IMG/VR virus record: IMGVR_UViG_3300017734_000125 | Coordinates: 1-20,104 of that record | Source of the DNA: a virus | Reading direction: 5' to 3' (one strand) | Length of the DNA: 20,104 nucleotides | In this document: positions 6,073-9,257 of the stretch, piece by piece | Layout of the letters: each line of letters begins with the position of its first letter | Position numbering within the stretch: the stretch's first letter is position 1 | Made by a program: the position numbers and the translations under genes | Notes under the pieces: model-generated | Seen by the model: only the letters and a program-made list of their open reading frames with translations | The model's database searches: none | What the model was told of the DNA's origin: nothing

Positions 6073-6504
6073 ATGTTTACTGCTGAGCTTATCACTACGC
6101 TAGGCGGCATGGTCGCTGGCTTTGTGATGAAGCTCATTGCGATACGGTCGCAACAACAAGTGGACTTCCAGATGGCGGCCATTGGCAAGATCAATGCCGC
6201 CACGGAATCCGCAGACCGCGCCGCCGCCCGTACCAAGGACGGTGGCAAATTTGCCCGACGTCTTATCGTGCTGTTCATTTTGTTCAGCGTTGTCCTCGTA
6301 CCCCTGCTTGCCCCCATGTGGGGCTTGCCGGTGGTCGTCGAACACGACAAGAAAATCGGCAGCCTGTTCTTCGGGCTGATTGACTTACCATCGTTCAAAC
6401 AATTCACCACAGTCTATGGCGTCCTGCTCATCCCCGAATTGCGGCAGGTGCTGTTGGCCATTGTTGGATTCTACTTTGGCGCTGGATCAGCGAGGGCACG
6501 TTGA
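6073..6504 (+). CDS. Three-TM membrane protein, holin candidate
   Basis: 143-residue inner-membrane protein. Three hydrophobic segments are visible: residues about 5-24 (LITTLGGMVAGFVMKLIAI), about 62-84 (RRLIVLFILFSVVLVPLLAP) and about 113-137 (VYGVLLIPELRQVLLAIVGF). A polar, coiled-coil-like stretch of Q, A, E and D residues lies between the first two. The ending AIVGFYFGAGSARAR resembles the end of 3TM holins of the gene-transfer-agent type (Pfam GTA_holin_3TM) as I recall them. A holin would form the timed membrane lesion for lysis. The neighbouring lipobox/TM gene fits a lysis cassette. GAGGAA at 6063-6068 precedes the start and the stop overlaps the next ATG (TGATG). Another kind of phage membrane protein remains possible. 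Confidence 0.6.
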   Translation: MFTAELITTLGGMVAGFVMKLIAIRSQQQVDFQMAAIGKINAATESADRAAARTKDGGKFARRLIVLFILFSVVLVPLLAPMWGLPVVVEHDKKIGSLFFGLIDLPSFKQFTTVYGVLLIPELRQVLLAIVGFYFGAGSARAR

Positions 6505-6701
6505 TGAAATACATTGCCCTATTGGTGCTGACAGGATGTCAAGCACTAAAGGTGGACGACGCTCTCGTCAAAGAGTTGACCCGCCCAGAGAAACACACGA
6601 CCGTAGGCTCGCCACTGACTGGCAATCCTCCGGCAATACCGTGGTGGATAGTAGCCCTAGGTGGCTGCTTCCTACTATGGAAACTTACAAAGGAAGATTA
6701 A
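6504..6701 (+). CDS. Small lipoprotein with C-terminal TM segment, spanin-like candidate
   Basis: 65-residue protein. Residues 1-11 form a short hydrophobic signal, and the lipobox LTGC ends at C12, which would be lipidated after cleavage. A polar, proline-containing section (13-43) follows, then a C-terminal hydrophobic segment PWWIVALGGCFLLW (46-59) and a short charged tail KLTKED. An outer-membrane lipid anchor plus a C-terminal TM is the topology of unimolecular spanins (T1 gp11 type), which join inner and outer membranes in lysis. The linker of about 30 residues is much shorter than in known examples, so it might instead be a small membrane lipoprotein. I chose the ATG at 6504, which overlaps the holin-like stop and has GAGGG at 6492-6496, over the TTG at 6501. 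Confidence 0.7.
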   Translation: MKYIALLVLTGCQALKVDDALVKELTRPEKHTTVGSPLTGNPPAIPWWIVALGGCFLLWKLTKED

Positions 6702-6865: not shown

Positions 6866-7951
6866 ATGATTATCGAAACTCTTGCTAGCCTTGCGCTGGC
6901 GCAACCGGTGGGCGGGGAGTTCGAGTTCGGCATCGTAAAGATGGTGGACCGTGGGCGACTTACGCCCTTTGGCAGAACCTATGACGTGTACCTCGATACG
7001 AACGGACGAGTGCCCTCGTTCCTTCACTCAGGCCGTTACTGGATCTGCGATCCCGACAATGTGTCTGGCCCGTTGAATACCCGAGGCAAAGAGAACAAGA
7101 ATGCTCTCATTAGCTTCAGCAACTTTAGCGGCAAGGATGTACTCTGGTACAACTACCATAACCCATGGGCTCCAAAGGCAGACATCCGTACCGAGCCCGG
7201 TATGGACGATTGGTTCTGGCAGAACGACCCCGAGTGGTGGGCCTGCCAGCTGGGTAACTACCTCAACACGTCGTACTTTAACCGGGCAATTCCTGTTGAG
7301 TGGTACATCGATAGTAACGGATTCCCGCAGCGACGCTGGGATCTCCAAGCTGTTGATTACTTCTGGGCTGACACGTGGCTGCTGCAAGGCGCTCCGTTCA
7401 TCCTGAACGATCAGAATGATCGCCCTATCTTCCCCCAGATGGAAGAGCAGTGGGCTGACTGGATGTATCCCAGCGTGCCCGGCGAGAACAATTCTTCTGT
7501 TCTCATAGCGAAGTCCGCACTTGACGAAATTACTGATACCTACCGCTGCGACCCCTCACCGGGAAGCCGCGACTCTGGTGTCTTGATCCGATTCGGTAGC
7601 ACTCCTGCAGGCGTAAGCTGGGAGAGCTCCGAGTTCCCCGGACAGTTCCGCATCATGCGAGTGACTGGCCCGATCGAGCGTGCCCGCTTTAACTTCTACA
7701 TTACGTACGAAGATTTGGGTGGAGCGCAGCCGGGGCAGACCACGTGCGACGAAGGCGTTAACCGACAGGACTACGCTTACTCCACGTTCGTGTTCCCTGT
7801 GGACTTAAACCCAACCGACCTCAACGAAGATGGCGTGACCAACTTCAGCGATCTGTTGATTGTCATCTCTGACATCTCAGCAGGCAAGTACAAGAACGAT
7901 GGCTTCGATGCCATCCTTGAAGTGCTTGGCGGATGGGGACCTAACCAGTGA
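6866..7951 (+). CDS. Trp-rich accessory protein with C-terminal dockerin-like Ca-binding loop
   Basis: 361-residue protein I cannot assign to a phage family. The first 13 residues (ending SLALAQ) are hydrophobic and could be a short signal, but no basic residue precedes them. The body (20-300) is mostly polar and very aromatic: 15 tryptophans (for example W116/W118, W124/W125, W167/W171, W196/W199) and four cysteines (61, 127, 228, 294). Residues 318-329 form a dockerin-type 12-residue loop (D318, N320, D322, G323, N326, D329), followed by a helical part and the ending GGWGPNQ. That style of single loop plus WGP ending is, to my knowledge, frequent in exported Planctomycetota proteins. AAGGAG at 6854-6859 precedes the ATG. 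The GTGA overlap ties it to the next gene. It may be a virion decoration, adhesin or secreted factor; function unknown. Confidence 0.85.
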   Translation: MIIETLASLALAQPVGGEFEFGIVKMVDRGRLTPFGRTYDVYLDTNGRVPSFLHSGRYWICDPDNVSGPLNTRGKENKNALISFSNFSGKDVLWYNYHNPWAPKADIRTEPGMDDWFWQNDPEWWACQLGNYLNTSYFNRAIPVEWYIDSNGFPQRRWDLQAVDYFWADTWLLQGAPFILNDQNDRPIFPQMEEQWADWMYPSVPGENNSSVLIAKSALDEITDTYRCDPSPGSRDSGVLIRFGSTPAGVSWESSEFPGQFRIMRVTGPIERARFNFYITYEDLGGAQPGQTTCDEGVNRQDYAYSTFVFPVDLNPTDLNEDGVTNFSDLLIVISDISAGKYKNDGFDAILEVLGGWGPNQ

Positions 7952-8532
7952 ACTGCTACACCGAAAAAGAAACTCTCGACGGCGGGCTGATTAAGTACCG
8001 CTGCTTCCTCGAGGGCATTGGCCCCGAGGAGTTCATCACTGCAGTAGGCGACATGGACGACAGCGGATGCTTGTTCGTCTCCACTGCGCCGCTCGTGCAG
8101 GATGAGCCTAACTTTCCAGCTAACTTTCCGACAGGTGCTGCTGGCCCCGACGATAGCTTTGTCTGCATCGGTAACACTACCGGTGGAGAGATGAAGACTC
8201 CGGGCTTCCGTAGTATCCTCGGCAACACTTGGAACCAATCCGGAGAAGGATGGTTCAAGATGCCAGCTGGAGATCACATGGGAACGAACATGATTGCTCA
8301 GTTCGTTCTGCCCGCCGATGCGCAGTGGTCCTTCAAGGGCGCTGCTCGTATTCGGGTGGAGAAAGGCGTTGGCCGGACCTTGCCGTTCCACTTTCAGGAA
8401 CTGTCAGGCCCAGTGGCGGGCGACCTCGACGGCGATGGCATCGTCAACTGGCGAGACCTGACCCTCGTGCTCTCTAAGTGGGAGCAATACGGCTTCGATG
8501 AACTTACTAAAGTTCTGTCGGGCTACAACTAA
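7948..8532 (+). CDS. Second accessory protein with C-terminal dockerin-like loop
   Basis: 194-residue protein, probably translated by coupling: its GTG start overlaps the stop of the previous gene (GTGA), with a purine-rich GGATGGGGA about eight bases upstream. The body has four cysteines (3, 19, 41, 73) and a likely beta-rich part (MIAQFVLPADAQWSFKG, 115-131) in the style of planctomycete exported proteins. Residues 159-170 form a near-perfect dockerin loop (D159, D161, D163, G164, N167, D170), then LTLVLSKW and a second helix ending VLSGYN. No signal peptide or membrane segment is visible, unlike a free exported protein. A complex with the preceding protein is plausible because both carry the same terminal module and are made from one message. 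The strong terminator at 8540-8575 follows at once. Confidence 0.82.
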   Translation: MNCYTEKETLDGGLIKYRCFLEGIGPEEFITAVGDMDDSGCLFVSTAPLVQDEPNFPANFPTGAAGPDDSFVCIGNTTGGEMKTPGFRSILGNTWNQSGEGWFKMPAGDHMGTNMIAQFVLPADAQWSFKGAARIRVEKGVGRTLPFHFQELSGPVAGDLDGDGIVNWRDLTLVLSKWEQYGFDELTKVLSGYN

Positions 8533-8539
8533 ATCCAAG

Positions 8540-8575
8540 GAGACCATGGCTTAGCGGCCATGCGTCTCTCTTTTT
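8540..8575 (+). terminator. Rho-independent terminator after the dockerin gene pair
   Basis: The left arm GAGAC + CATGGC (8540-8550) pairs with GCCATG + GTCTC (8557-8568), with a single bulged C at 8563 and the loop TTAGCG. The right arm is followed by TCTTTTT at 8569-8575. This is a classic intrinsic terminator 7 bases after the stop codon. The left arm also contains a ribosome-site-like AAGGAG (8537-8542) and ATG-GCT-TAG (8546-8554). The remainder up to 8602 holds only the AAGGAG site of the next gene. Confidence 0.85.
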
Positions 8576-8602: not shown

Positions 8603-8866
8603 ATGAAAGACCCAAGACTTGAGCAGATCTCAATGATCGAGGCTGCCCTGACTTCAAACATCGGCGGCGTACGGAATGCTCACCCATGGATCAAGCCTAT
8701 GTGGCTTGAAATCCAACGACTTCGCAAGGAGCTTGGACAACTTAAAGAACCCGAGCAGCCCATCAAGACTGCTACGGAAATCCTAAAAGAAAAAAAGGTA
8801 GCCGAAAAGGCTACCGAGAAGAAGGCACCTCGTCGTGCAAAGAAGACCGATACTGACGAAGGTTGA
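8603..8866 (+). CDS. Hypothetical helical protein with lysine-rich tail
   Basis: 87-residue protein of unknown function with a well-placed AAGGAG (8592-8597) five bases before the ATG. Residues 1-50 look helical and amphipathic (MWLEIQRLRKELGQL, 33-47). Residues 55-82 are rich in K, E, A and R (KEKKVAEKATEKKAPRRAKK) and resemble a nucleic-acid or charged-partner binding tail. No membrane segment. It is the first gene after the terminator at 8540-8575, so it must depend on readthrough or a new promoter. An in-frame A-AAA-AAG sequence at 8791-8797 and a 7-bp hairpin lie inside it. The next gene overlaps by 32 bases if its GTG start is right. Confidence 0.75.
   Translation: MKDPRLEQISMIEAALTSNIGGVRNAHPWIKPMWLEIQRLRKELGQLKEPEQPIKTATEILKEKKVAEKATEKKAPRRAKKTDTDEG
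8785..8815 (-). terminator. Minus-strand intrinsic terminator-like sequence inside a + strand gene
   Basis: On the + strand an A-rich tract (8785-8796, ending in seven A) is followed by a perfect 7-bp inverted repeat, GGTAGCC (8797-8803) and GGCTACC (8809-8815), with the loop GAAAA. Read on the minus strand this is a 7-bp hairpin followed directly by TTTTTTT-C-TTTT, a textbook intrinsic terminator. It lies within the lysine-rich part of the coding sequence, so codon bias for Lys/Glu could partly explain the A-run but not the perfect stem. It may stop antisense transcription; activity is inferred. Confidence 0.5.
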
Positions 8867-9257
8867 GGTCTGGTTCTGGGACCAACTGCCCGGTGACTAT
8901 CGTCACTGGTGGATTGGAACCACAAGCGAGAAAGCACACTGTGCTGTAGTGCTTGGCGACTGGATGTTAGGAGTTGACCGAAAGGGCAACAGGTGGGAAC
9001 CCATCAGCCTACTGCATCCATGGTACCAGAGCCCTGACTACGTGGTCGACTGTGGCTACACCCGACAGACATTCCTAGACTTTCAATCCTACGAGACCGA
9101 ACGGCTCGATGCGTTCCGCCTATGGTGGGCATCGTGTGCTAGGGCTTTAGGATTCAACGTCTCACTTGGTGCAGGATACTGCTCCGATACTGTCCGCCGA
9201 ATACTATCAATACCCGGTAGTAATCTTACAGTCGATGACGTCTGGAAACTACTATGA
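8835..9257 (+). CDS. Possible permuted NlpC/P60-like cysteine hydrolase
   Basis: 140-residue protein. EKAHCAVVLGDWMLGVD (from about residue 34) resembles the HVALVIGD strand pair with the catalytic His of permuted papain-fold (YiiX/NlpC-P60-like) proteins. GAGYCSDTVRRIL (near 115-127) resembles their later catalytic Cys at the start of a helix. The His-then-Cys order fits a permuted fold, but the similarity is weak and by eye only. Such a protein could be a peptidoglycan hydrolase for lysis or entry, or an acyl-transfer enzyme. No other endolysin candidate is visible in the window. The start is uncertain: GTG at 8835 overlaps the previous gene by 32 bases; no ATG lies near the conserved VEVWFWD start. 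The stop overlaps the next ATG (ATGA). Confidence 0.6.
   Translation: MQRRPILTKVEVWFWDQLPGDYRHWWIGTTSEKAHCAVVLGDWMLGVDRKGNRWEPISLLHPWYQSPDYVVDCGYTRQTFLDFQSYETERLDAFRLWWASCARALGFNVSLGAGYCSDTVRRILSIPGSNLTVDDVWKLL

Follow-up and report, generated by a model that had tools for sequence, protein, structure and literature searches.

In freshwater planctomycetes, cohesin-dockerin complexes termed planctosomes have been proposed, and the dockerins involved are non-cellulosomal (PMC6461901). In phage T5, the small lipoprotein Llp is a factor of superinfection exclusion, with FhuA as the receptor (PMC9586334). A cultured Phycisphaerae strain, ZRK32, releases phage chronically, without lysis (PMC10945688). 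Searches of the open-access literature, judged by titles and the openings of abstracts, brought up no description of phage-encoded dockerin-type or PEP-CTERM tags.

The locus considered here lies in a linear virus record of 20.1 kb (IMGVR_UViG_3300017734_000125, positions 1 to 20,104), the whole of which is referred to as the window. It carries T7-like portal and capsid genes, the former 32-34% identical to the head-to-tail joining proteins of T7-like phages and the latter 25-28% identical to its T7-like counterparts; the RNA polymerase lies outside this fragment. Two plus-strand genes, P1 and P2, are joined by a GTGA overlap. P1 (6866..7951, coding 6866-7948) has an AAGGAG ribosome site immediately upstream of its ATG at 6866 and encodes an exported-type protein of 361 aa, made up of a Trp-rich body and a C-terminal dockerin-type module (7802..7948). 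P2 (7948..8532, coding 7948-8529), which starts at the GTG at 7948, encodes 194 aa, with a Phycisphaerae-homologous body and a module of its own (8416..8529). Directly 3' of P2, a terminator-like stem-loop (8545..8562, plus strand) is predicted from a consensus match only. A frameshift fusion of the two genes can be dismissed, as the P2 frame does not open until 7945, a little upstream of the P1 stop, and the end of P1 is also the end point of its family.

Two further genes flank the pair. Just upstream of P1, the small product of positions 6501-6701 starts with a lipobox-like sequence (LVLTGCQ), has hydrophobic residues in its C-terminal part and could belong to a spanin. The 140-aa product of 8835-9257, whose gene adjoins P1 in T7-like relatives too, has a conserved HCA..LG motif and a later Cys, and by eye may be a papain-like peptidase.

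The C-terminal module of P1 and P2

The first-pass annotation, made from the DNA letters alone, was correct on the GTGA overlap and on a dockerin-like calcium loop near the end of each protein, at P1 residues 318-329 (7817-7852; DLNEDGVTNFSD) and P2 residues 159-170 (8422-8457; DLDGDGIVNWRD). Both loops have D/N at positions 1, 3 and 5, G at 6 and D at 12, and both are followed by two helices; in P1 these span residues about 327-338 and 346-355, and the protein ends in LGGWGPNQ. A second dockerin repeat had been taken to be absent; in fact its helix persists (GFDAILEVLGGWG in P1, GFDELTKVLSGYN in P2) and only its calcium loop is gone, so that the pair of calcium loops that characterizes PF00404 is reduced to one. 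The structural model of P1 is confident in this region, with pLDDT of 82-94 over residues 311-360 except for the last residue and with both helices placed behind the loop.

The Pfam search suggested by the first-pass annotation bore it out in position and fell short in score: Dockerin_1 (PF00404) matches exactly the two loop stretches, at 14.2 bits in P1 and 13.3 bits in P2, under a gathering cut-off of 22.9, and even such a weak match is found in just 1 of 19 P1-family members. The modules are more than chance resemblances, because P1 reaches 57 bits with a module profile of its viral relatives, built without P1, and P2, at 14.9 bits, exceeds the best of 20,000 shuffles of its own sequence (10.9 bits); the shuffling test rejects a chance loop. 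A strict loop pattern occurs near the C-terminus of 90 of 102 family members, as compared with 3 matches among the 1354 further genes at these loci. Calcium binding by the P1 and P2 modules would be expected from the loop residues. Bracketing cysteines, one before PxDL and one after WGx, are present in >90% of the viral relatives; both are gone from the window P1 and absent from P2, and their joint absence from P1 would be consistent with the loss of a whole disulphide pair. Inspection and profile searches of both proteins revealed no PEP-CTERM tail on either.

The P1 family, its carriers and its predicted export

Neither scans of viral contigs with single sequences nor tblastn searches of phage records returned relatives of P1 or P2, and P1 relatives were reached only via the portal gene of related phages. 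The phage with a portal 86% identical to that of the window (L002) encodes a P1 relative at the corresponding position, where the two proteins share only 32% identity; P1 and P2 are both missing from this position in another portal relative, L003, and the more distant podoviruses L036, L038 and L039 encode P1 relatives behind the portal. Searching with an alignment of these relatives found the family in at least 89 IMG/VR contigs, and 80 of the 89 were kept. The C-terminus of complete copies is formed by the module, usually of the type SCPSDLNEDGxVGFxDLLQVLxDVxxxKYHPQTNNGFNAIxKVLSEWGxC, and nearly all members keep it. The window P1 shares the invariant columns of the family (the GRLTPFGRT motif, the body and the C-terminal module), and the other members of its subfamily (L082-L088 and L091, at 54-61% identity) sit in T4-like contigs wherever enough of the neighbourhood is known. 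No match to P1 or P2 above cut-off was found in Pfam, PHROGs or NCBIfam, and INPHARED had no match even for a better-conserved P1 relative or for the 52-aa module.

The carriers are of several kinds. The first-pass annotator knew of no T7-like phage with this arrangement; the T7-like L095, L106, L107, L131 and L143 carry P1 in the window's gene order, and L002 is a further T7-like carrier. A second podovirus lineage (L036, L038, L134, L136) also has P1, as do siphovirus-type contigs with a terminase and portal of their own and T4-like contigs (L082, L085, L086, L112, L116, L117, L155, L156), in which P1 directly follows a gp23-type major head gene. One P1 subfamily is 80-82% identical among T4-like L117, T7-like L002 and L095, and siphovirus-type L098, and identity among podovirus portals alone goes down to about 54%. 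An identity of about 80% between copies from unrelated phages implies that the P1 gene moves between them, and the phages that exchange it probably share hosts. The supposed two-part unit is not supported by the wider sampling: the P1 relatives in at least 89 contigs are found without P2, which is known from the window only.

Several observations concern genes of the same contigs. Phages L083, L086, L087 and L114 encode two or three tandem P1-family paralogs each, and every paralog has a hydrophobic N-terminal stretch and a C-terminal module of its own. Between small membrane genes and P1, L002:5310-7684 holds a dUTPase-like gene and a large ribonucleotide-reductase-like gene, both recognized by eye only. 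L147:1-171 belongs to a phage gene outside the P1 family that also ends in a dockerin-type tail (CGTCAGDANADGVVGFLDLTTILGNWGCEG), and two adjacent phage proteins at L114:13290-15377 have an EF-hand-like loop that is internal rather than C-terminal (DFNGDGIIGAND, DYNGDGYIGPND).

Many family members begin with classical Sec-type signal peptides (e.g., MRHFLTLVVCTLSSFSFA in L117), and an N-terminal hydrophobicity of 2.0 or more is reached by all measured members versus 7.5% of control genes. The possible signal noted earlier on P1 is clear across the family and weak in the window copy, where the short hydrophobic stretch MIIETLASLALA (6866..6901, plus strand) reaches a 9-residue hydrophobicity of 1.69, at about the 90th percentile of other genes; P2 has the same module, though no signal peptide. 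The N-terminus of P1 has no lipobox. The conserved cysteines of the family fit an exported protein, and export of the P1-family proteins, predicted from their N-termini, is well supported. The genes next to P1 are of a similar kind. In T4-like contigs, P1 is followed by a gene whose product bears a signal peptide and ends in a PEP-CTERM-like tail (IPAPG...RRRR; e.g., IPAPGTLTLLGLSIIGNRSRRRR), as at L082:7022-7663, L112:9076-9705, L114:9925-10563 and 16 other places, and NCBIfam sorting-signal models match these tails weakly. Near P1 in podo- and siphovirus-type contigs (L095:5568-5987, L130:9047-9499, L131:2009-2428 and others), the proteins of a second family have a cysteine motif at the N-terminus, a run of hydrophobic residues and a tail resembling PEP-CTERM (e.g., IPEVGQLALLGSLPFLMNKRRR).

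The first-pass annotation had left open whether the pair was displayed on the virion or secreted; the signal peptides of the family support secretion and argue against display. As a virion decoration, P1 would be attached to the capsid or tail, where its module would bind a partner on the host surface and aid adsorption. We hold this to be unlikely: its location, immediately behind the head gene of T4-like phages and close to the portal gene of podoviruses, would suit such a role, as would the Trp-rich body, a weak beta-sandwich resemblance to adhesins (Z 3.5 or less) and a P2 without a signal peptide, but the clear Sec signal peptides of many members, the conserved cysteines and the neighbours with a signal peptide and PEP-CTERM-like tail fit export and not assembly of virions in the cytoplasm.

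The body itself appears to be viral. It was found in no cellular genome searched, including 298 Phycisphaerae genomes, a set in which it was absent while the same query did match viral records. The model of the window P1 body is poor (mean pLDDT 61) and that of L117 better (74); fold searches with a family body gave no reliable relative, just weak beta-sandwich resemblances with Z of 3.5 or less, among whose unrelated rows cohesins and bacterial adhesins occur. A cohesin-like body that would bind the module of another P1 copy was considered, and no evidence for it was found. An exported, surface-held P1 could alternatively serve a metabolic or digestive role, its body binding or processing a polysaccharide or other nutrient for the infected host; the Trp-rich composition and the large exported proteins among the dockerin-tagged proteins of the host would be in line with this. 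We nevertheless think it quite improbable, as profile searches matched no enzyme or binding-module family, no fold match is reliable and the invariant residues form no evident catalytic set.

Cellular matches and candidate hosts

When species genomes were scanned with the C-terminal 100 residues, nine matches were obtained, the best four of which are in Phycisphaerae MAGs; three of these four have near-identical two-repeat tails (CPSDLNEDGFVGFSDVLEVVASWGPC, LGCPADVNNDGAVEFADLLEVLADYGDC). Most matches outside Phycisphaerae span the loop only, and those that cover the whole module, second helix included, are from Phycisphaerae. Against L160-L163, the module of the viral family is 42-47% identical over its length, covering repeat 1 and the second helix and sharing the C-terminal position. 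By these alignments, the phage module looks like a Phycisphaerae two-repeat tail that has lost its second loop and kept its second helix.

At an E-value of 0.01, these four Phycisphaerae MAGs have 48-171 module matches each, two Bacteroidota have 13 and 23, and an acidobacterium has 1. At the strict threshold of 1e-5, the module is found in 3 of 120 Phycisphaerae genomes, with 10 matches in G003, and in 0 of 118 Bacteroidota. With just 3 of 120 genomes matched at this threshold, the module is not a mark of the class as a whole, and its close version belongs to a few Phycisphaerae lineages.

The P2 body leads to the same class. One match (E 1.1e-5, 36% over 124 aa) is to a Phycisphaerae protein that combines a signal peptide with a PEP-CTERM-like tail, and a wider search found such bodies in further exported Phycisphaerae proteins and, more weakly, in 3 of 247 Bacteroidota; an alignment of P2 and its Phycisphaerae relative had no match in viral contigs. 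The planctomycete link drawn in the first-pass annotation is thereby upheld, by the best cellular matches of the module and by the P2 body alike. Homologs in phages of unrelated hosts had been named there as evidence against it; the carriers are indeed unrelated to one another, yet the evidence points to one host group. Its cohesin-like host partner did not turn up, PF00963 being absent from all five Phycisphaerae genomes searched, which are presumed hosts and in which a divergent partner would be missed. An exosortase is encoded in 4 of the 5.

From these matches, Phycisphaerae are the likely hosts of the P1-carrying phages. The same tag and mechanism could operate in marine bacteria of another group whose proteins end in similar tails, for instance Flavobacteriales, given the loop-only matches in that order and in another Bacteroidia MAG and the few P2-type bodies of Bacteroidota; we find this doubtful, since the matches that extend through the second helix are from Phycisphaerae, the strict search drew a blank in Bacteroidota, and PEP-CTERM-like tails in neighbouring phage genes are paired with exosortase in the candidate hosts.

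Proposed role and relation to known systems

On balance, we favour P1 as a phage-specific exported protein with a Phycisphaerae-type tag that is placed on the surface of the infected cell, where it perhaps masks receptors. During infection, P1 would be exported by the Sec pathway of the host and its module would fold with calcium outside the cytoplasm; the envelope system of the host would then retain P1 on the surface, presumably as it does the dozens of identically tagged proteins of the host itself. Once there, the body may alter the surface, most likely by masking receptors against further phage adsorption, or else by changing attachment, and P2 would contribute a host-derived surface domain and a second copy of the tag. 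Surface retention is what the tag suggests, and a surface-held protein in turn suggests a surface-changing role such as receptor masking, by analogy with T5 Llp. Counting against this explanation are the weak signal of the window P1, the missing one of P2, the small share of Phycisphaerae genomes (3/120) with strict module matches, the weaker P2-type bodies of a few Bacteroidota, the absence of a cohesin from the five genomes searched, and the position of P1 behind the T4-like head gene, which a virion protein could equally have. A broader proposal, in which unrelated phages of marine Phycisphaerae exchange an exported-protein cassette that uses the dockerin-type tag together with exosortase/PEP-CTERM to rebuild the infected-cell surface, is put forward tentatively, at a little under an even chance.

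To our knowledge, almost no lytic phages are known for Phycisphaerae. As a sequence marker, the module could link many orphan marine phages to this class. The retention of the tag by phages, on a single conserved protein in genomes that are otherwise unrelated, could also help to explain the role of the very abundant planctomycete dockerin-type tails in cases in which a cohesin is not found.

Among described modules, the closest in sequence are the Phycisphaerae two-repeat tails (CPSDLNEDG...WGPC LGCPADVNNDG...YGDC; L160-L162), with which the phage module has the first repeat and second helix in common, as well as, for most viral members, the bracketing cysteines; it differs in a KYHPQTNNG-type linker that replaces the second calcium loop, in the viral body and, for the window P1 and P2, in the lack of those cysteines. 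Cellulosomal dockerin type I (PF00404) has the same 12-residue loop followed by a helix and the same two-repeat layout, whereas P1 and P2 score below its cut-off, have lost the second loop, are phage-borne and have no cohesin counterpart in the five candidate host genomes. The planctosome likewise places non-cellulosomal dockerin-type modules on exported planctomycete proteins, but its model includes cohesin partners, of which those five genomes had none, and has no viral part (PMC6461901). PEP-CTERM/exosortase sorting is represented by tails on genes near P1 in related phages and on the host relatives of P2; in P1 and P2 the dockerin-type module takes the place of such a tail. With T5 Llp (PMC9586334), P1 would share the role of a phage-encoded exported protein that alters the infected-cell surface, although, unlike this small lipoprotein with its known receptor FhuA, it has no lipobox and has a different fold. 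Phage-encoded proteins that alter the cell surface are already known, and a host-type sorting tag on them would be the new part.
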